From positions 1 through 20,170 of IMG/VR virus record IMGVR_UViG_3300035698_000098: 20,170 bases of DNA; one strand, 5' to 3'. Source of the stretch: a virus. Positions 3,419 to 17,297 of the stretch are shown here, one piece after another (position 1 is the first letter of the stretch; each line of letters opens with the position of its first letter). The notes under the pieces were generated by a model, which did no database searches, was not told the origin of the DNA, and was given only the letters and a program-made list of their open reading frames with translations. A program made the position numbers and the translations under genes.

Positions 3419-4237
3419 ATGCCAGTCAATCATTATTTTCAGAATGGAAACGGAATCGGTGACTCTAACGAAAAAAGATTACACGAAGATTTAATTATCG
3501 AAGGCCTAAAAATCTACGGCCACGATTGCTATTATTTACCAAGAACATTAGTTAATAAAGATTTAGTTTTAGGAGAAGATACACTTTCTAAATTTGATGG
3601 CTCATATCTATTAGAAATGTATATTGAAACAACTGAAGGATTTGCAGGTGAACAAGAATTAGTTTCTAAATTTGGTTTAGAAGTAAGAGACGATACAACG
3701 TTTATGATTTCAAAAAGACGTTGGCAAAATCAAGTTGATAATACTGCTACACTTATTAAATCAGGACGACCAAATGAAGGTGATTTAGTTTATGTACCTT
3801 TAATGAATAGTTTTTTTGAAATACAGTTTGTTGAAGACCAGGAGCCATTCTTTCAACTAGGTAATTTACCAGTTTACAAACTTAAAACAACTAGATTTGA
3901 ATATAGTGCTGAAAAATTTGACACAGGTGTTCCTGTTATTGATGATGTTGAAGCAGCATTATCTACAGACTTGTTGCAACATCAAATAACTTTAGAGAGT
4001 GAAACAGCCGCAGGTACTGGTAGTTTATTACTTGAGTCTACAGATACAACATTAGGTAATTATAATTTCTTTAAATTAGAAACAGATGATTTCAACTTAT
4101 CAACACAAACAAGAGATTATGCTGATAATGATACTTTTGAATCAGACGCAGGATTTGGTACAGTTTCAACAGATGATGATATATTAGACTTTACTGAAAG
4201 AAATCCTTTTGGTGAAGTGGATGAGGAAAGCTTATAA
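3419..4237 (+). CDS. 14: Neck protein gp14
   Basis: A 272-residue protein close in length to T4 gp14 (256). The N terminus (HYFQNGNGIGDSNEKRLHED at residues 4-23, then IIEGLKIYGHDCYYLPRTLV) is characteristic of gp14. Residues about 100-150 hold a beta-rich core with DLVYVPLMNSFFEIQFVED. The C-terminal 100 residues are acidic and rich in Thr, Ser and Asp. The ATG is five bases after the gp13 stop and the binding site (AGGATAA) lies within the gp13 end, so translation is likely coupled. gp14 joins gp13 at the head-tail connector. The stop overlaps the gp15 start by one base (TAATG). Confidence 0.93.
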   Translation: MPVNHYFQNGNGIGDSNEKRLHEDLIIEGLKIYGHDCYYLPRTLVNKDLVLGEDTLSKFDGSYLLEMYIETTEGFAGEQELVSKFGLEVRDDTTFMISKRRWQNQVDNTATLIKSGRPNEGDLVYVPLMNSFFEIQFVEDQEPFFQLGNLPVYKLKTTRFEYSAEKFDTGVPVIDDVEAALSTDLLQHQITLESETAAGTGSLLLESTDTTLGNYNFFKLETDDFNLSTQTRDYADNDTFESDAGFGTVSTDDDILDFTERNPFGEVDEESL

Positions 4238-5037
4238 TGTTTGGAAGAAGATTTTACCACGAATCATTAAGAAAAGTTGTAGTTGCTTTTGGTACAATTT
4301 TTAATAATATTATAATTCATAGAACAAATAGTGATGGCGATGTTGTTCAAAAAATAAGAGCACCTTTGGCATATTCTCCAAAAGAAAAGTTTTTAACACG
4401 ATTGGACCAACAAGCAAATTTAGACAATAGAGAAATGGCAATTACTTTGCCTCGTATGGGTTTTGAAATATCAGGCATAAATTATGACGCCTCTCGTAAA
4501 TTACAAAGGCTTGGAAAGTTTAAAACAGTTAATAGTTCAGACCCGGATAAACAATACTATCAATATAATCCTGTACCATACAATATAAGTTTCAATTTAT
4601 ACTCTTTTACTGCTACTGCTGAAGGCGGTCTACAAATTATAGAACAGATATTGCCTTACTTTCAACCAGATTATACAGTTACAATTAATGCGATTCCTGA
4701 AATGGGAATCAAAAGAGATGTTCCTATAACATTAAATAGTGTAAATTATGAAGATTCATATGATGGTTCATTTACACAACGAAGAGCTGTTAACTATACT
4801 ATGGGATTTACTGCTAAAACTTATTTGTATGGACCTATATATTCTGGTAAAATTATTAAAGAAGCTCAATCAGATTTATATAGTGATACAGCAACCACAG
4901 AAAAAAGAGAAGAAAGAATTGTTGTAACTCCTAATCCGACCTCAGCTAGTGCAGATGATGATTTTGGATTTACAACAACTATAAGTACATTTAACGATTC
5001 TAAAAATTATAATCCAAGTACAGACACAGATGAATAA
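4237..5037 (+). CDS. 15: Tail sheath stabiliser and completion protein gp15
   Basis: A 266-residue protein, near the 272 of T4 gp15. The N terminus (MFGRRFYHESLRKVVVAFGTIFNNI) and the middle (ITLPRMGFEISGINYDASRK at residues about 69-88; YQYNPVPYNISFNLY at about 108-122) are typical of this family. The second half is a beta-rich domain, followed by a flexible acidic tail of about 50 residues. gp15 forms the ring on top of the finished tail that stops sheath and tube growth and binds the neck. It begins inside the gp14 stop codon (TAATG), implying coupled translation, and closes the neck operon: the next gene belongs to the accessory cassette. Confidence 0.93.
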   Translation: MFGRRFYHESLRKVVVAFGTIFNNIIIHRTNSDGDVVQKIRAPLAYSPKEKFLTRLDQQANLDNREMAITLPRMGFEISGINYDASRKLQRLGKFKTVNSSDPDKQYYQYNPVPYNISFNLYSFTATAEGGLQIIEQILPYFQPDYTVTINAIPEMGIKRDVPITLNSVNYEDSYDGSFTQRRAVNYTMGFTAKTYLYGPIYSGKIIKEAQSDLYSDTATTEKREERIVVTPNPTSASADDDFGFTTTISTFNDSKNYNPSTDTDE

Positions 5038-5062: not shown

Positions 5063-5070
5063 CATAAATA
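5063..5070 (+). promoter_or_regulatory. Late-promoter-like element CATAAATA
   Basis: Seven of eight bases match the T4 late octamer, in the gap between gp15 and the first oxygenase. The next ATG is at 5084, so a transcript starting about six bases downstream would have a leader of only a few bases and no ribosome binding site. Confidence 0.4.
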
Positions 5071-5083
5071 GATATATATTATT

Positions 5084-5764
5084 ATGAATTTAAAAGATTA
5101 TTATTGGTACTTCGAGTCAGCCTTGTCGCCTAAACTATGTGCTGAAATTTTAAAATACGGAAAATCTTTTAATACCGAAACTGCTGTGACAGGTAATGTG
5201 TCAAGCAAGTATAAAGATAACCGATTACCTAGAGATGAACAAGATAGAATAATACTAACTGCTGAAGATCAAAAAGATTTAAAGAAAAAAAGAGATTCAG
5301 AAGTTACTTGGTTAGACGACAAGTGGATATATAAAGAGTTACATCCTTATGTAGAAATGGCAAATATTAAAGCAGGTTGGAATTTTCAATGGGATTATTC
5401 AGAGTCTTGCCAATTTACAAAATACTCTACAGGTCAATATTATGGTTGGCATTGTGACAGTTGGCAACAACCTTATAAACGTGAAGACAAAACAGATCCG
5501 ACTAATGGTAAAATTAGAAAGTTATCTATGACACTATCATTAAGTGATCCTTCAGAATATGAGGGTGGAAATTTAGAATTTGATTTTAGAAATGATGTTG
5601 ACAAGGAACTAAATAAAGAAACTAGCTTCAAAGAGTGTACTGAAATAAGGCCTCGTGGTTCTATTGTAATATTTCCAAGTTTTGTTTGGCATAGAGTTAA
5701 ACCTGTAACAAGAGGTACAAGATATTCATTAGTGATGTGGACTTTAGGATGGCCTTTTAAATAG
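5084..5764 (+). CDS. 2-oxoglutarate/Fe(II)-dependent oxygenase (prolyl-4-hydroxylase-like), cassette gene 1
   Basis: A 226-residue protein with the double-stranded beta-helix signature of the 2OG-Fe(II) oxygenases. The metal triad is visible as H123-x-D125 (in YGWHCDSW) and H203 (in VWHRVKP), with R213 (GTRYSLV) placed to bind 2-oxoglutarate. GGNLEFDF (161-168) and RGSIVIFPS (191-199) are the usual strands between them. Residues 1-30 resemble the N-terminal helix of phage prolyl-4-hydroxylase-like proteins. The family couples decarboxylation of 2-oxoglutarate to hydroxylation of a protein, base or small molecule; the substrate is unknown here. All catalytic residues are present, so it is probably active. 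There is no ribosome binding site before the ATG: the leader is an AT run after CATAAATA. Confidence 0.85.
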   Translation: MNLKDYYWYFESALSPKLCAEILKYGKSFNTETAVTGNVSSKYKDNRLPRDEQDRIILTAEDQKDLKKKRDSEVTWLDDKWIYKELHPYVEMANIKAGWNFQWDYSESCQFTKYSTGQYYGWHCDSWQQPYKREDKTDPTNGKIRKLSMTLSLSDPSEYEGGNLEFDFRNDVDKELNKETSFKECTEIRPRGSIVIFPSFVWHRVKPVTRGTRYSLVMWTLGWPFK

Positions 5765-5791
5765 ATTATATATAGGAAAAAAGGAAATAGT

Positions 5792-6499
5792 ATGACAGTT
5801 AGTGTACAAAGAGAAAGAATGCTTACAAATTATGTTTTTGAAACACCTTTGTATAGCATATATAAACCACAATGGTTGGAATCAACAATTAAAGCGACAG
5901 ATAAATTTATTGATTTATCTTATCAAAGAGCTAAAAAAGAATCATTAGTTAAACGTGAAAAATTTTTAGGTAAAAAAAACTTTGAAAAAGTTAAAGACCA
6001 CGGAATGAGTTATCACTCAACTTTATTAAATGGTGTTCCTGAATTAAGAGAACTTGAAACATATATCGGACACACATCACATAACCTATTAGACGAGTGG
6101 GGTTATGATATGTCACAATATACAATGCACTGGACAGAATTTTGGGCACAAGAGTTTTCTAAAAATGGTGGAGGACACCACGATACACACGTTCATTGGG
6201 ACAATCACATATCAGGTTTTTATTTTTTAAAGTGTTCAGATGTTACATCTCGTCCTGTGTTCCACGATCCTAGACACGGTGCTATGATGACTAAATTGCC
6301 ATTAAAAGATAAAGATAAAAAATCTATTATGAGTGATAAACTTTATTATAGTTTTAAACCAGGAACATTAGTATTTTTTCCTTCGTATGTTCCACATCAA
6401 TTTACAGTTGATGATGGTATTGAACCTTTTAGATTTATACACTTTAACTTACAAGCTGTAAGAAATGTGATTTTAAAACATTATAAGGAAAACAAATGA
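5792..6499 (+). CDS. 2OG-Fe(II) oxygenase of the H-x-H…SG type (2OG-FeII_Oxy_5-like), cassette gene 2
   Basis: A 235-residue protein. Residues 14-30 (YVFETPLYSIYKP) are the start typical of the group in which the metal site reads H-x-H-x5-SG. Here it is H133-V-H135 within HHDTHVHWDNHISGFYFLKC, with SG at 141-142. PGTLVFFPSYVPHQF supplies the distal H202, and R214 is a plausible 2-oxoglutarate ligand. WTEFWAQEF (114-122) precedes the site, as is usual. The insert between the core strands (about 150-185) is Lys/Asp-rich. AAGGAAA upstream serves as ribosome binding site. Its stop overlaps the next ATG (ATGA), so genes 2 and 3 are translationally coupled. The catalytic residues look intact; the substrate is unknown. 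Confidence 0.83.
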   Translation: MTVSVQRERMLTNYVFETPLYSIYKPQWLESTIKATDKFIDLSYQRAKKESLVKREKFLGKKNFEKVKDHGMSYHSTLLNGVPELRELETYIGHTSHNLLDEWGYDMSQYTMHWTEFWAQEFSKNGGGHHDTHVHWDNHISGFYFLKCSDVTSRPVFHDPRHGAMMTKLPLKDKDKKSIMSDKLYYSFKPGTLVFFPSYVPHQFTVDDGIEPFRFIHFNLQAVRNVILKHYKENK

Positions 6500-7206
6500 A
6501 ATCAAATTTTAAAAAAAATCATTATATAGTTATTAAAAAAGCAATACCTAAAGAATTAGCTACTTTTGTTTATAATTATTTTTTAATGAAACGTCAGGTT
6601 GCTAAAACATTTTTTGATACAAGATATATTTCACCATTTACAACTGAATGGGGTGTATGGGAAAACTGTGCTCAAGTACCAAATACTTATTATCAATATG
6701 CTGATATAGCTATGGAAACTTTGTTGCTTGCTGTTCAACCTAAAATGGAAAAAGAAACAGGTCTTAAATTAAATCCCACTTACTCTTATGCTCGTATTTA
6801 CAAAAATGGTGATGTATTAGAAAGACATAAAGACAGGTATAGTTGTGAAATTTCTACAACATTAAATTTAGGTGGTGAGGAATGGCCAATATACATTGAG
6901 GCTAAAAAAAATATAGGAACGCCAGAAAATGGTTATCCACATGCTACAAATAATAAAGGTACAAAAGTTATTTTACACCCAGGAGATATGTTAGTTTACA
7001 AGGGTAATATTTGCGAACACTGGAGAGAAAAATTTAAAGGTGAAGACTGTGCTCAAGTATTTTTACATTATAACAATGTTAAATCTAAATTTGGTGAACC
7101 TGATAAAAATATTTTTGATACAAGACCTCATTTAGGATTACCATCTTGGTTTAAAAATTATGATTTGTCAGATAAACGACATAAAAAACTTTTTTATAAA
7201 AAATGA
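6496..7206 (+). CDS. 2OG-Fe(II) oxygenase-like protein, cassette gene 3
   Basis: A 236-residue protein of a third oxygenase subtype. The metal ligands are H111-K-D113 (in LERHKDRYSCEIS) and H175 (in CEHWREKF). YSYARIYKNGDVL (97-108) is the strand before the HxD, and HPGDMLVYKG (161-170) the strand before the distal His. The spot where a 2-oxoglutarate-binding Arg is expected about ten residues later is not a clear RxS: the sequence is EDCAQVFLHY, and nearby K181 or R177 would have to serve. This variant recurs in marine myoviruses as I recall them. It overlaps both neighbours by four bases (ATGA) in the same style, indicating one coupled unit. The role is probably hydroxylation of an unknown substrate. 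Confidence 0.75.
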   Translation: MKSNFKKNHYIVIKKAIPKELATFVYNYFLMKRQVAKTFFDTRYISPFTTEWGVWENCAQVPNTYYQYADIAMETLLLAVQPKMEKETGLKLNPTYSYARIYKNGDVLERHKDRYSCEISTTLNLGGEEWPIYIEAKKNIGTPENGYPHATNNKGTKVILHPGDMLVYKGNICEHWREKFKGEDCAQVFLHYNNVKSKFGEPDKNIFDTRPHLGLPSWFKNYDLSDKRHKKLFYKK

Positions 7207-7739
7207 TTAATATTGTTAATTGTGAAAATAAATTAACTGACGAAGATATAAAAAATTCATTAAAATTTTTAGATGAATATGTAAAGACCAATTCTTGTTG
7301 TGATCAATTTCCTAAATGTCAACATCCTAAATCTCAAACCGATCCTAATGTATTTGAGTCAAATGATGAAAGAATAAAACCTATTAAAGAAAGTTATCTT
7401 TATTCGTTAAAAGATGTTTTTAAAACAGACTTTGATATAATTAAATCTAAAACTTGGGCTTTTATACAAAAAGAAAATAAAGAATATAACTGGCATAATC
7501 ACCTAGGTGATAAAATTGATGAACAACACATACCTGTTTCTGGTATAATTTATTTAAGCGATTTAAATTTTGGTACTATATTTGATTTAGACAATTTTGT
7601 ACTAGAAATTAAACCTAAAAAATTTTATTGGTATATTTGGCCTGGTCATTACGTTCACACACCAACACAGTTTATTTGCAATACAAATAGATATGTTATT
7701 GCAACATCAACATACCTTAAATTAAAAAACAATAAATAG
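7203..7739 (+). CDS. 2OG-Fe(II) oxygenase-like protein with H-x-H site, cassette gene 4
   Basis: A 178-residue protein. The core is readable: W97-H98-N-H100, then SG at 113-114 inside PVSGIIYLSD, GTIFDL, KPKKFYWYIWPGHYVH with distal H152, and R163 in NTNRYVIATSTYL. This is the same H-x-H…SG arrangement as cassette gene 2, but the two proteins are otherwise unlike and this one is shorter. Residues 30-60 hold four cysteines (C8 lies apart; C32, C33 and C39 cluster) that might bind metal or be incidental. Translation is coupled to gene 3 by an ATGA overlap. It is followed by AATAAATA and gp16. Confidence 0.68.
   Translation: MINIVNCENKLTDEDIKNSLKFLDEYVKTNSCCDQFPKCQHPKSQTDPNVFESNDERIKPIKESYLYSLKDVFKTDFDIIKSKTWAFIQKENKEYNWHNHLGDKIDEQHIPVSGIIYLSDLNFGTIFDLDNFVLEIKPKKFYWYIWPGHYVHTPTQFICNTNRYVIATSTYLKLKNNK
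7731..7738 (+). promoter_or_regulatory. Late-promoter-like element AATAAATA before gp16
   Basis: Seven of eight bases match the T4 late octamer. It overlaps the end of cassette gene 4 and lies seven bases before the gp16 ATG, so a transcript made from it would be nearly leaderless. Given the AT-rich background, it may be a chance match. Confidence 0.3.
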
Positions 7740-7745
7740 TATAAT

Positions 7746-8246
7746 ATGAGTATAGACGATAAAATAAATGAGGCACTTGGTATCTCTACCGAACAAAAGC
7801 CTGCCACAAAGTCAGTAGTTAAAAAAGAGTTTACTCCTCCTGTACCTAGATTAGAAGACAAGGATAAAGAGGATGTAGATAATGATTACAAATACAGTAG
7901 AGAAAACTATTACAATCTTATAGAAAGAGGTCAAGACGCAATACAAGGTATATTGGATATTGCAAACGAAAGTCAACATCCTAGAGCCTATGAAGTTGCA
8001 GGTAATCTAATTAAGCAAGTGGCCGATACAGTTGATAAATTACAAGATTTACAAGGCAAACTTAAAAATTTAAAAGATGTTCCTAATAAGACAAGTACAA
8101 ATATTAAACAGGCCTTGTTTGTAGGTTCATCAGCAGAGTTACATAAGATACTTAAAAATAAAAATAAGGATGTACAAAGTGAAGAAGATAAAAGTTTTAA
8201 AAGCAAAAACATCACACCCGAAAAAACAGATGTTTCTGATAAGTGA
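7746..8246 (+). CDS. 16: Small terminase subunit gp16
   Basis: A 166-residue protein, matching T4 gp16 (164). The central signature is DYKYSRENYYNLIERGQDAIQGILDIANES (from about residue 46), then HPRAYEVAGNLIKQVADTVDKLQDLQGKLKNL, two long amphipathic helices forming the coiled core of the gp16 ring. ALFVGSSAELHKILK (about 123-137) is also typical. The first 45 and last 30 residues are Lys/Asp/Glu-rich and probably flexible. gp16 recognises or regulates DNA and stimulates the gp17 ATPase. Unusually for T4-type order, gp17 does not follow: a ParB-like gene and two oxygenases intervene. No ribosome binding site is visible; AATAAATAGT lies directly upstream of the ATG. Confidence 0.88.
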   Translation: MSIDDKINEALGISTEQKPATKSVVKKEFTPPVPRLEDKDKEDVDNDYKYSRENYYNLIERGQDAIQGILDIANESQHPRAYEVAGNLIKQVADTVDKLQDLQGKLKNLKDVPNKTSTNIKQALFVGSSAELHKILKNKNKDVQSEEDKSFKSKNITPEKTDVSDK

Positions 8247-8502
8247 TTTAACATATACTAAAAAAAATCCTTATCCACATACTTTACCAGAACACGAAAA
8301 AAATAATTGGTTAAAAGATGGTATGAACGAGCCTATAGAAGTTATTAAACACAATATAAGTACAACTCCTAGATTTGGTGCATTAGGTGCTAGATATAAA
8401 GAAAAAAAATATTCTGTACATAAAGGTAGCAGTAGAATAAATGCAGCTGTGTCTATGGGATACAATGCGATTGAAGGTATTATAATTAATGAAAATACAT
8501 AA
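8230..8502 (+). CDS. Small ParB-like fold protein
   Basis: About 90 residues from the ATG at 8230, or 110 from an ATG at 8170 deeper inside gp16. The later start is preferred because the first 20 residues of the longer form are Lys-rich and read through the gp16 tail; neither has a convincing ribosome binding site. Counting from 8230, LKDGMNEPIEVI (28-39) and YSVHKGSSRINAAVSMGYNAIEGIII (61-86) match the two halves of a ParB-type domain, with HKGSSRINAA in the place of the G-H/E-R-R box. The protein is the bare core with no helix-turn-helix. Such phage mini-ParB proteins may bind DNA or nucleotides or have nuclease activity; which applies is unknown. Lying between the terminase subunits, it might act in packaging, but that is guesswork. 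Confidence 0.55.
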   Translation: MFLISDLTYTKKNPYPHTLPEHEKNNWLKDGMNEPIEVIKHNISTTPRFGALGARYKEKKYSVHKGSSRINAAVSMGYNAIEGIIINENT

Positions 8503-9109
8503 GTTTGATAAAAATAGTTTTGTTGCAGGATACTATATATCTGAAAATGTTTGTGATGATCTTATTAAAAAATATAAAGAAGAAGATTTTAATAACAATA
8601 CATTTGTAGGTACAACTGATAGTGCTACTAAAAAAATAAAGATTATAAAAGCAAAAAAATCTACAGAATATACAACAAATATTAATAATAAAGATCCTAG
8701 AATAATTACATATATTGAATGTTTAAAAAAATTAGTAGGTTTATATAATGAAACTTATTCTGCTACAAAACTAATATCAAAATATGGCATTGTTCAAGCA
8801 TTTAACATACAATATTATAAACCGACTGAAGGATTTTATGAATGGCATTGTGAAAGTAGTGGCGTTTATCCTAATTCAGCAAGAGTTTTTGCTTGGATGA
8901 CATATCTAAATGATGTGCCAAATGGAGGTACAGAATTTTTATATCAAAATTTAACAGTTCCTGCTAAAAAAGGTTTAACATTAATGTGGCCTGCAGGATG
9001 GACACATACGCATAAAGGACAGATTTCAAATGAGTATGAAAAATATATTATCACAGGTTGGTTTAGTTATACGGATAAAAACTTGTTTAGAGGTTTAAAT
9101 AATGAATAA
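8489..9109 (+). CDS. 2OG-Fe(II) oxygenase (prolyl-4-hydroxylase-like, HxE variant), cassette gene 5
   Basis: A 206-residue protein with a clear prolyl-4-hydroxylase-like C-terminal half: QYYKPTEGFYEWHCE, then WMTYLNDVPNGGTEFLYQ, KKGLTLMWPAGWTHTHKG and YIITGWFSY. The metal site reads H120-C-E122 rather than H-x-D, with distal H173 (or H175) and K185 as the basic 2-oxoglutarate ligand. Glu in place of Asp occurs in phage members of this group, so activity is still possible. The first 60 residues form a variable N-terminal region with a Lys-rich stretch. The start overlaps the ParB-like gene by 14 bases and the stop overlaps gene 6 by 8 bases, so the three are coupled. Confidence 0.82.
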   Translation: MKIHKFDKNSFVAGYYISENVCDDLIKKYKEEDFNNNTFVGTTDSATKKIKIIKAKKSTEYTTNINNKDPRIITYIECLKKLVGLYNETYSATKLISKYGIVQAFNIQYYKPTEGFYEWHCESSGVYPNSARVFAWMTYLNDVPNGGTEFLYQNLTVPAKKGLTLMWPAGWTHTHKGQISNEYEKYIITGWFSYTDKNLFRGLNNE

Positions 9110-9629
9110 TTTTATAGAAGATGATGACTTTTTAAAAGACCATCATAAAGATTTTATTAATAACATTGTTTTAAGTAGTAATTTTCCATATTTTTATTAT
9201 CCATTTTCTGTAAACGGTGACGGCAATTCACATTTAACTCATATAGTTAAAAACAGACCTGAAAATAATGGTCAATGGAACAGTATTTACAAAGATCAAT
9301 TTGTTGATATATTTGAAACATTTTGTAAAAAAAACAATATAACATATAAAGAAATTTTTAGATGTGCTGTAAATATTAGTTTTAATGTAAAAGATAAAAA
9401 ATCTCCTATTCATTATGACCACGAGTTTAAACATAGGCAAATAATAATATATTTAAATAACCCTTTAGATAATAATTCAAATACTGTAATACTAGATAAA
9501 GAAAAGATAAATATTATAAAGGAAATTAAACCAAAAAAGTATAAAGCAATTTGTTTTGATAATCTTCCTCACTTTATGTATTATCCACAAAAAGGTGAAA
9601 GATTTGCTTTAATTTATACTTTTATATAA
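9102..9629 (+). CDS. 2OG-Fe(II) oxygenase-like protein, cassette gene 6
   Basis: A 175-residue protein, the least typical of the six. A beta-helix metal site can be traced: H104-Y-D106-H107 (in SPIHYDHEFK), then RQIIIYLNNP and NTVILD, KPKKYKAICFDNLPHFMYYP with distal H157, and R167 in GERFALIYTF. The N terminus has YPFSVNGDG (33-41). Similar HxDH proteins occur in marine myoviruses. The DNA is very AT-rich: a 60-base sample at 9121-9180 has 12 G/C, against 22 in a sample of gp17 at 10141-10200. It overlaps gene 5 by eight bases and stops five bases before the gp17 ATG. The oxygenase call is good on motif order but moderate overall. Confidence 0.68.
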   Translation: MNNFIEDDDFLKDHHKDFINNIVLSSNFPYFYYPFSVNGDGNSHLTHIVKNRPENNGQWNSIYKDQFVDIFETFCKKNNITYKEIFRCAVNISFNVKDKKSPIHYDHEFKHRQIIIYLNNPLDNNSNTVILDKEKINIIKEIKPKKYKAICFDNLPHFMYYPQKGERFALIYTFI

Positions 9630-9634
9630 CAGTT

Positions 9635-11266
9635 ATGTCAGAATCATATTTAGGAAATCCTAACTTATTTAAAGCAAACACAAGAATTGAATATACACAA
9701 GAGCAAGTACAAGAAATTGCCAAGTGTATGGAAGATCCTGTTTACTTTATTAAAAACTATATTAAGATTGTAAACATTGATGATGGTCTTGTGCCTTTTG
9801 GAATGTATAAGTTTCAGGAAAAAATGGTAAAAACATTTGACGAAAATCGTTTTTCTATTTGTAAACTTCCAAGACAGTCAGGTAAGTCAACAACCATTAT
9901 TGCATACTTATTACACCAAGTTGTATTTAATCATAATATCAATGTGGCCATACTTGCCAACAAAAGTTCTACCGCAAGAGATTTATTAGGTCGTCTTCAA
10001 CTTGCATATGAAAATCTACCTAAATGGTTACAACAAGGTGTATTAAACTGGAACAAAGGTTCTTTAGAATTAGAAAATGGTTCAAAGATACTTGCAGCTG
10101 CAACATCAAGTTCTGCTATTCGAGGTGGTTCATTTAACATCATCTTCCTTGACGAGTTTGCGTTTATTCCTGCCAATATATCTGAACAGTTTTTTAGTTC
10201 AGTTTATCCTACCATATCATCTGGTAAATCATCTAAAGTAATGATTGTATCTACACCACATGGAATGAATATGTTTTATAAACTATGGAATGACGCAATA
10301 CATGGAAGAAATGATTATATTCCTGTAGAAGTACATTGGTCTGAAGTGCCAGGACGAGATGATAAGTGGAAAGAAGAAACAATACGAAATACGTCTGAAG
10401 CACAATTTGCTACCGAGTTTGAATGTGAGTTTGTAGGTTCAGTTGATACACTTATTAACCCATCTAAAATTAGAATGTTATCTCACAATACTCCTATAGT
10501 TTCAAACGCAGGATTTGATATGTATGAACGGCCAGAAAAAGGAAAAGATTATGTTATCACCGTTGACGTAGCAAGAGGTACAGTAAAAGATTATTCTGCC
10601 TTTGCTGTTTTTGATGTTTCAAAAATGCCATATAGAATGGTTGCAAAGTTTAGAGATAATGAAATTAAACCTATATTGTTTCCACACACTATAGAAAAAG
10701 TAGCAAGACAATATAATAATGCTCATATTTGCGTTGAGGTTAATGATATAGGTCATCAAGTTGCTGACGCATTACACTTTGAATTAGAATATACAAATTT
10801 ACTTATGTGTATGATGAAAGGCCGTGCAGGTCAAATATTAGGTGGTGGTTTTTCTAAACGAGGAACACAGTTAGGTGTTCGTATGACAAAATCAGTAAAA
10901 CGTATTGGTTGTTCTAACTTAAAGTCTTTACTTGAAGGAGATAAAATACTTGGAAACGATTTTCACACAATACAAGAGTTATCAACCTTTGTAAGACGAG
11001 GTTCATCATGGCAGGCCGAAGAAGGTGCAAATGATGATTTAGTTATGTGTTGTGTTATTTTTGCATGGATAACAAATCAACGATATTTTAAAGAAATGAC
11101 AGACCAAGATGTACGTGCTAGAATGTATGAAGAACAGGCAAATGCGATAGAACAAGATATGGCACCTTTTGGTTTTGTGAATGATGGTTTAGATGAAGAC
11201 TATATACAAGATGATTCAGGAGAAGTATGGACACCTGTAACTGTAAGAAAAGGCGATATTCTGTAA
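9635..11266 (+). CDS. 17: Large terminase subunit gp17 (packaging ATPase and nuclease)
   Basis: A 543-residue protein. Residues 79-86 (PRQSGKST) are the Walker A loop, IIFLDEFAF (169-177) is Walker B with D173 and catalytic E174, and STPHG (206-210) is the coupling motif. The C-terminal RNase-H-like nuclease has D311 (VDVARG), E368 (CVEVND) and D467/D468 (ANDDLV), which correspond to D401, E458 and D542 of T4 gp17. T4 gp17 is 610 residues; the reduction is mainly terminal. gp17 docks on the portal gp20, translocates DNA and cuts concatemers at headful. All key residues are present. The ATG five bases after the oxygenase gene has no clear ribosome binding site, so translation may depend on upstream coupling. 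Confidence 0.96.
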   Translation: MSESYLGNPNLFKANTRIEYTQEQVQEIAKCMEDPVYFIKNYIKIVNIDDGLVPFGMYKFQEKMVKTFDENRFSICKLPRQSGKSTTIIAYLLHQVVFNHNINVAILANKSSTARDLLGRLQLAYENLPKWLQQGVLNWNKGSLELENGSKILAAATSSSAIRGGSFNIIFLDEFAFIPANISEQFFSSVYPTISSGKSSKVMIVSTPHGMNMFYKLWNDAIHGRNDYIPVEVHWSEVPGRDDKWKEETIRNTSEAQFATEFECEFVGSVDTLINPSKIRMLSHNTPIVSNAGFDMYERPEKGKDYVITVDVARGTVKDYSAFAVFDVSKMPYRMVAKFRDNEIKPILFPHTIEKVARQYNNAHICVEVNDIGHQVADALHFELEYTNLLMCMMKGRAGQILGGGFSKRGTQLGVRMTKSVKRIGCSNLKSLLEGDKILGNDFHTIQELSTFVRRGSSWQAEEGANDDLVMCCVIFAWITNQRYFKEMTDQDVRARMYEEQANAIEQDMAPFGFVNDGLDEDYIQDDSGEVWTPVTVRKGDIL

Positions 11267-16967: not shown

Positions 16968-17297
16968 ATGAGTTTGGTTCAACTTTTTAGTTTTCCTGTT
17001 TACAAAAAATCACTTAAAAAAGAAGACTACGATAGAGGTGGTCTTTTAAATACTATTCAAAAAAATTACGATATAGACAAAAATAGAAACAAGTGGGCAA
17101 CTGGTTTTACAGATATACACCATTCACTTTGTGATGATGATAATACAACAGAAAATTCTTTTTTGTTTAGAAATATTAAATTAGATACTGAACAAGATGA
17201 TGTTTTTATATTCCCAGCTGTATTAACCCACAGTATATCAAAGGTTATTACAAATAAAAAACGCATTACAATATCATTTAATTTTGACATAGAGTGA
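16968..17297 (+). pseudogene. Internally deleted 2OG-Fe(II) oxygenase remnant
   Basis: A 109-residue frame whose two ends look like a 2OG-Fe(II) oxygenase of the H-x-H…SG group. Residues 3-12 (LVQLFSFPVY) are the usual N terminus, KWATGFTDIHHSL (42-54) the usual following region, and KLDTEQDDVFIFPAVLTHSI with distal H88 and R99 in KKRITISFNF the usual end. The middle, where the H-x-H/D site and core strands belong, is missing, apparently joined near residues 59-65 (about 17142-17162). Full members are about 180-240 residues. The frame is kept, so a protein may be made, but it lacks the proximal iron ligands and should not be an active oxygenase. It could be a relic or a repurposed small protein. 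Confidence 0.6.

Follow-up and report, generated by a model that had tools for sequence, protein, structure and literature searches.

The complete IMG/VR virus record IMGVR_UViG_3300035698_000098, referred to here as the window (20,170 bases, 32% GC), carries six genes with motifs of 2-oxoglutarate (2OG)- and Fe(II)-dependent oxygenases in the interval between genes 15 and 17 of a T4-like structural block. The order in this slot is ox1 (5084–5764), ox2 (5792–6499), ox3 (6496–7206), ox4 (7203–7739), gp16, a small ParB/sulfiredoxin-like open reading frame (ORF), ox5 (8489–9109), and ox6 (9102–9629), and these genes, like gp15, gp17, and the ox7 ORF described below, lie on the plus strand. The left edge of the slot is formed by gp15, the tail sheath stabilizer (4237–5037), assigned by family and by synteny with the Pelagibacter phages Mosig and HTVC008M; gp16 (7746–8246) is the terminase small subunit (terS; phrog_445, E 1.7e-46; PF11053), and gp17, the terminase large subunit (9635–11266), is identified by its 68–69% identity to the Mosig and HTVC008M proteins. 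The gene order gp13-gp14-gp15-...-gp16-...-gp17-gp18-gp19-gp20 is the same in those two phages, and because of this match and the gp17 identity the window appears to derive from a T4-like, pelagimyophage-like ocean phage for which a SAR11 host is likely.

A sequence-only reading of the window had described six oxygenases in one run that splits the terminase subunits. There are six such genes between gp15 and gp17, but they are arranged as four plus two, broken by terS and the small ORF: ox1–ox4 come before gp16, on its gp15 side, so that gp16 and gp17 are separated by no more than the small ORF, ox5, and ox6. Nor is an interrupted terminase region a special sign, as the setting is an ordinary one; g15–g18 is a known insertion hotspot, documented as a hyperplastic region of cyanomyoviruses with 4–14 inserted genes (Millard et al. 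2009, as cited in PMC2984593). The genes are closely packed, with 4-base ATGA overlaps at ox2/ox3 and ox3/ox4, as had been noted, and overlaps of 8 nt at ox5/ox6 and 14 nt between the small ORF and ox5; the earlier description of mostly 4–14 base overlaps thus holds at four junctions but not at ox1/ox2, which are 27 nt apart. The small ORF (8170–8502, with a likely start at about 8230) overlaps the end of terS, has a weak ParB-like phrog match (E 0.099), and occurs after gp16 in most carriers of the cassette. An assembly chimera can be rejected, as the same arrangement is present in a contig from another metagenome (IMGVR 3300005611_000084) and, in part, in two more (3300044723_000958 and 3300001748_000800).

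Ox1 is similar to PKHD-type and prolyl hydroxylases, matching PF13640 (E 3.2e-16) and phrog_61 (E 2.8e-41) as well as PDB profiles of the PKHD-type hydroxylase 3dkq (E 1.2e-13) and of PiuC; it scores below the NCBIfam PKHD equivalog cut-off (63.7 bits, with 143 required). Its H123xD125...H203...R213 residues are invariant over 24 homologues. Ox5 is prolyl/lysyl-hydroxylase-like and also matches PF13640 (E 4e-8) and phrog_61 (E 3.6e-36), with PDB profile matches to the prolyl 4-hydroxylase (P4H) 3itq (E 6.8e-9) and LH3 (E 0.0024); H120xE122...H173 is invariant and K185 is conserved at 90% or more. Ox2 is of the TIGR02466/PF13759 type: it passes the PF13759 cut-off (E 4.1e-14; 53.2 versus 27), falls just under that of the TIGR02466 NCBIfam subfamily (59.9 bits versus 62.5), and matches the solved structures 3bvc (E 2.6e-19) and 2rg4, which are uncharacterised proteins of the PF13759 type. 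Ox2 has H133xH135...H202, invariant over 20 homologues, in place of HxD...H, and because 3bvc also shows HxH at the aligned site, metal binding may depart here from the canonical arrangement. Ox4, a probable PF13759/phrog_81-like oxygenase, likewise has an HxH (HNH) and a later histidine, both kept in a near relative (L139), and is the weakest of the six assignments; its sole profile support is phrog_81 (E 3.5e-5), it has no match in 50,697 phage records and two relatives in IMG/VR, and profile-profile comparison gave no link to the ox2 family. We class ox2 and ox4 on sequence only as PF13759-like relatives. A further PF13759/TIGR02466 ORF (ox7; 16968–17297), between gp20 and gp21, matches PF13759 with its C-terminal half only (E 3.5e-6) and TIGR02466 at positions 161–200 of 201; it keeps the start and the C-terminal part without the HxH-bearing middle and is probably a decayed oxygenase.

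The two remaining genes belong to families that carry other names. Ox3 is labelled 'ferrochelatase' in PHROGs (phrog_2954, a label shared by phrog_3531) and in many phage records, and ox6 is labelled 'DNA endonuclease V' (phrog_274); both were modelled with AlphaFold2 from alignments of the window and IMG/VR sequences. The ox3 model (pLDDT 87.7) has the Pseudomonas putida prolyl hydroxylase 4iw3 as its top Foldseek match (E 2.6e-8), and VIA-align places it close to SnoN (Z 16.9, rmsd 3.2, 190 residues aligned) and PHD2 (Z about 15), with all 50 of the 50 matches listed being 2OG oxygenases. The putative iron site is H111xD113...H175, in which HxD is invariant in the homologue alignment, and the family signature is RHKDRxxCExS ... 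HWR ... QxFxH. The family is without a Pfam model and ox3 has no Pfam match; none of 27 members has a Pfam ferrochelatase match (E 0.1), and no ferrochelatase is among the Foldseek and VIA-align matches listed, although absence from such a list excludes nothing by itself. We reject a ferrochelatase role for ox3 on the predicted fold, the HxD...H residues, and the lack of a Pfam ferrochelatase match, and we interpret ox3, from its predicted fold and HxD...H, as a widely mislabelled 2OG oxygenase. This relabelling is not wholly new, given that the homologues in S-SCSM1 and 023Pt_psg01 are already named 2OG or Fe(II)-dependent oxygenases in GenBank; the RefSeq version of S-SCSM1 still has ferrochelatase. 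The ox6 model (pLDDT 90.2) matches PHD2 by Foldseek (E 6.1e-7) and the 2OG oxygenase 6n1f by VIA-align (Z 16.6, rmsd 2.5, 164 residues aligned), and H104xD106...H157...R167 is invariant across its homologues. DNA endonuclease V is likewise rejected for ox6 on this predicted 2OG-oxygenase fold and on the lack of any Pfam match up to E 10, including to the pyrimidine-dimer glycosylase domain.

Membership of the 2OG-Fe(II) oxygenase class is thus well supported, by alignments and models, for at least five of the six genes. The motifs described in the sequence-only reading exist and are conserved across homologues for five, while ox4 depends on one weak profile match; structure prediction, which had been proposed as a check, gave the 2OG-oxygenase fold for ox3 and ox6, and the beta-helix fold is supported in ox1, ox2, and ox5 through profile matches to solved members. 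The HxD/E...H iron triad is invariant or nearly so in the ox1, ox3, ox5, and ox6 alignments and is not present in ox2 and ox4. An arginine or lysine occupies the 2OG-binding position after the distal histidine in ox1 (R213), ox5 (K185), and ox6 (R167), and ox3 has a glutamine (Q187). Such invariance of iron-site residues in families that have diverged to 18–40% identity is far from chance, and dN/dS values relative to the related locus L144 are 0.10–0.27 for all six genes, the ox4 value (0.27) coming from few substitutions. If active, each enzyme would oxidise a substrate using Fe(II), O2, and 2-oxoglutarate. BLASTP gives no significant match between any two of the six, and ox1 and ox5 are the only pair that can be related at the level of family profiles; the six are therefore not recent tandem duplicates.

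Comparison of gene order across related phages, also suggested beforehand, shows a constant ox1-ox2-ox3 arrangement. Among 74 new loci retrieved by ox2, the three genes are contiguous and in this order in 68; five others have ox3 beside ox2 with no upstream ox1 call, and one is different. Because these loci were selected for ox2, they inform on its neighbours and not on frequency. Full-length copies of all three genes are present in 87 loci, including HTVC023P, HTVC033P, and 023Pt_psg01, and the HTVC023P-type pelagiphages are described as podoviruses (PMC9599517). Some phages have ox1 and ox3 without ox2, and in cyanophage S-SCSM2R (locus L239, 2983–4266) ox3 and ox1 are fused into a single protein that matches the ox3 profile (E 4.9e-54) and then the ox1 profile (E 7e-12) and PF13640 (E 4.7e-17); an automatic scan of the fetched loci found no ox3-ox1 fusion, and the S-SCSM2R example came from a later phage search. 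In contrast, ox5 is frequent but optional, ox6 is occasional, and ox4 is rare. The proposal that the oxygenases form a concerted unit is thus supported for ox1-ox2-ox3 only, with its order constant in 87 loci, its presence in a second phage lineage, and the fusion; sequence and prediction show these to be a fixed, co-inherited module of three non-paralogous, putative 2OG-Fe(II) oxygenases.

In a sample retrieved with gp17, and so not selected for oxygenases, ox1–ox3 occupy the slot in 3 of 62 loci that span gp15–gp17, and most hold only gp16. None of the 20 close backbone relatives whose contigs span gp15–gp17 (L009–L033; gp17 identity 79–91%) has ox1–ox3, and here too gp16 is usually alone in the slot. 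Carriers are found beyond the near relatives of the window, with gp17 identities of 64–73% and higher ox3 identities (L202, for example, has 64% in gp17 and 77% in ox3). Gain of the cassette in the lineage of the window would be a simpler reading than repeated loss in its sisters, although the high ox3 identity in distant carriers may instead reflect slower evolution of ox3. Distances for ox1–ox3 are correlated with each other (r 0.77–0.89), yet they also correlate with those for gp16 (r 0.77–0.80), and the correlation alone is therefore no proof of module transfer. A check for traces of a mobile element gave only short repeats flanking the block, of the kind that AT-rich DNA usually has, and no tRNA or Rfam match. 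We note that five contigs binned as Maricaulis sp. IN14 (L218, L223, L224, L229, and L230) carry phage-like ox1–ox3 arrays, and the metagenome-assembled genome thus probably includes phage contigs.

The sequences around these genes contain motifs similar to the T4-type late promoter, which for S-PM2 has been published as NATAAATA (PMC2984593). ATAAATA occurs nine times in the window, all on the coding strand and eight of them directly upstream of late genes, and the total is not above shuffled expectation. One copy (5064–5070) is 20 nt before ox1, and another (7732–7738) overlaps the ox4 stop codon, 14 nt before the gp16 ATG. Related loci show enrichment of the motif ahead of gp13 (34/39), gp18 (51/93), and gp20 (15/40), and only a moderate one before ox1 where it follows gp15 (10/25, with 3.9 expected). 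At gp16 its presence varies with the gene upstream: [AC]TAAATA precedes the ATG in all 65 distinct oxygenase–gp16 junctions, at 12 nt in 63 and at 14 nt in two, whereas gp15–gp16 junctions have it in 3 of 51 cases and never at either spacing. These counts share descent, the junctions after an oxygenase representing four gp16 clusters and those adjacent to gp15 representing 22; by cluster, the motif is present in 4/4 and 3/22 respectively. As only one of eight gp16 junctions after other inserts has it, the motif is tied to the oxygenase cassette or its lineages and not to any insertion. If it works as in T4, the terS message would start on the initiation codon or close to it and so be leaderless or near-leaderless. 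A sigma-70 promoter scan was not above shuffles. Expression late, during assembly, is plausible from the late-promoter-like motifs, and the pattern illustrates in a concrete case how the terminase gene may stay expressed when genes are inserted into a structural operon.

The explanation that we favor, with a probability of about 0.45, is that this is an accessory cassette in the g15–g18 hyperplastic region of a pelagimyophage-like T4 relative, with ox1-ox2-ox3 as its core and ox4, ox5, and ox6 as optional additions, and that its genes would be transcribed late, with the products hydroxylating amino-acid side chains of proteins made or present at that time, for example tail fibres, a different virion protein, or a host protein. 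Hydroxylation could be a first step, with glycosylation next. Consistent with this are the likenesses to protein hydroxylases (P4H and LH3 for ox5, PKHD and P4H for ox1, and, in the models of ox3 and ox6, P4H and PHD2 folds), the presence in HTVC023P of a tail-fibre-like gene two genes downstream of the triad, and the glycosyltransferase genes, one with a GT25 match, that follow the S-SCSM2R fusion. Several observations weigh against it. The late motif before ox1 is not kept in all relatives, ox2 and ox4 are without the usual carboxylate iron ligand, and ox3 has a glutamine and not an arginine or lysine at the usual 2OG-binding position; adjacency to fibre genes is weak evidence because such genes are close by in any T4-like structural block, and no collagen-like repeats are apparent in the fibre-like proteins of the window. 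Distant cellular relatives of ox3 reside in non-ribosomal peptide synthetase (NRPS)-like or other metabolic neighbourhoods, which would fit a small-molecule or carrier-bound amino-acid substrate equally well. We found no study in the literature of virion hydroxylation by phage enzymes. It is possible, but doubtful, that the triad is a dedicated hydroxylation system which unrelated marine phage lineages have exchanged, that its late target is one particular protein of the virion or the host, and that its arrival between gp15 and gp16 goes with a new near-leaderless late promoter for terS. The cultured phages HTVC023P and HTVC033P carry this small, conserved triad, so its substrate can be tested directly.

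Other explanations deserve consideration. The six genes could be independent morons, separate enzymes that have accumulated where insertions are tolerated and that belong to no common pathway, each having its own substrate or a small condition-dependent benefit. The known hotspot, the coming and going of ox4, ox5, and ox6, the lack of recent paralogy, and the case of S-SCSM1, whose 24 genes of this kind fall into at least 13 clusters, all agree with this, but the near-invariant ox1-ox2-ox3 order that crosses phage lineages and the ox3-ox1 fusion do not, and we regard it as unlikely. Tailoring of a small molecule, with hydroxylation of a free or carrier-bound amino acid or a host metabolite that might change nutrient or iron handling, seems less probable still. 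Cellular homologues with the RHKDR...HWR signature (L231, L238, L234, and L236) have genes of NRPS type, or for a thioesterase, a phosphopantetheinyl transferase, or an acyltransferase, in their vicinity; for example, ox3 homologues are between NRPS-type genes in Rhizonema contigs, and one in a Bacteroidetes contig is beside a CmlA-type hydroxylase, a thioesterase, and a phosphopantetheinyl transferase. The fold neighbours of ox3 include the amino-acid halogenases and hydroxylases HalD and BesD as well as SnoN, and ox1 resembles PiuC. However, the cellular homologues are only 30–44% identical to ox3, and in the window we saw neither an NRPS gene nor one for a carrier.

Oxidation of DNA bases by one or more of the enzymes, in the manner of AlkB or TET, is improbable: the similarity of the ox6 model to AlkB (Z 14.8) is in the same range as that to many protein hydroxylases, the TET-like profile match of ox3 is weak and non-significant (E 0.084), the best matches of ox1 and ox5 are protein hydroxylases, and among the genes of the window we recognised none for base hypermodification. 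A drain on 2-oxoglutarate, or signalling through it, that alters the 2OG/nitrogen status of the host has been proposed for cyanophages (Sullivan et al. 2010, PMC3037559), but the proposal is built on cyanobacterial NtcA and would leave the conserved, diverse active sites and the fixed triad unexplained, such that we consider it very improbable. Finally, a '2OG oxygenase + ferrochelatase' pair is reported both to be a set of partner genes and to be enriched among seasonal viruses (PMC9599517, PMC11561400), and the phrog_2954 and phrog_3531 labels and the reported co-occurrence with 2OG oxygenases (PMC9599517) would fit the reading in Wittmers et al. 2022 that the partners act on heme or iron. 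We give this almost no credence in view of the predicted 2OG-oxygenase fold and HxD...H of ox3 and the 0/27 members with a Pfam ferrochelatase match; if ox3 is an oxygenase, a role in iron or heme loses its basis, and what looked like a pair would be a hydroxylation unit of two or three enzymes.

Marine phages carry few kinds of accessory gene more often than oxygenase genes, and the earlier statement that multiple oxygenases occur in marine T4-like phages is well founded, as comparable arrays are present in relatives, with up to 24 genes per genome. The arrays of S-SM1, S-RSM4, HTVC008M, Mosig, S-SCSM1 (24 genes), and S-CREM1 (10 genes) belong to the same superfamily, have several families in common with the window (phrog_61, 81, 2954, and 274), and are, as here, densely arranged within the late structural block or next to it. 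The positions differ, with the main block before gp13 in S-RSM4, Mosig, and HTVC008M, and four genes at gp15–gp16 and two at gp16–gp17 here, and ox4 has no relative in the phage records searched. The g15–g18 region of cyanomyoviruses is the same position with variable inserts, and close relatives of the window lack its genes; there, photosynthesis and carbon genes are found, whereas the window has oxygenases and a late-promoter-like motif before terS. Relative to the prolyl 4-hydroxylases, LH3, and PKHD/PiuC, there is likeness of profile and fold, with HxD/E...H...R/K in ox1, ox5, and ox6, but the relationship is distant, with PKHD equivalog cut-offs missed and the ox3 glutamine at the 2OG position. 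HTVC023P, HTVC033P, and 023Pt_psg01 share the ox1-ox2-ox3 order of the window; the HTVC023P-type phages (Wittmers et al. 2022, PMC9599517) are described as podoviruses and not as T4-like, and the 'ferrochelatase' partner described there is reread here as a third oxygenase. Marine T4-like oxygenase arrays and the g15–g18 hotspot were thus already known, and what is new here is the fixed triad across phage lineages, the structural support for two annotation corrections, and the promoter pattern before terS.

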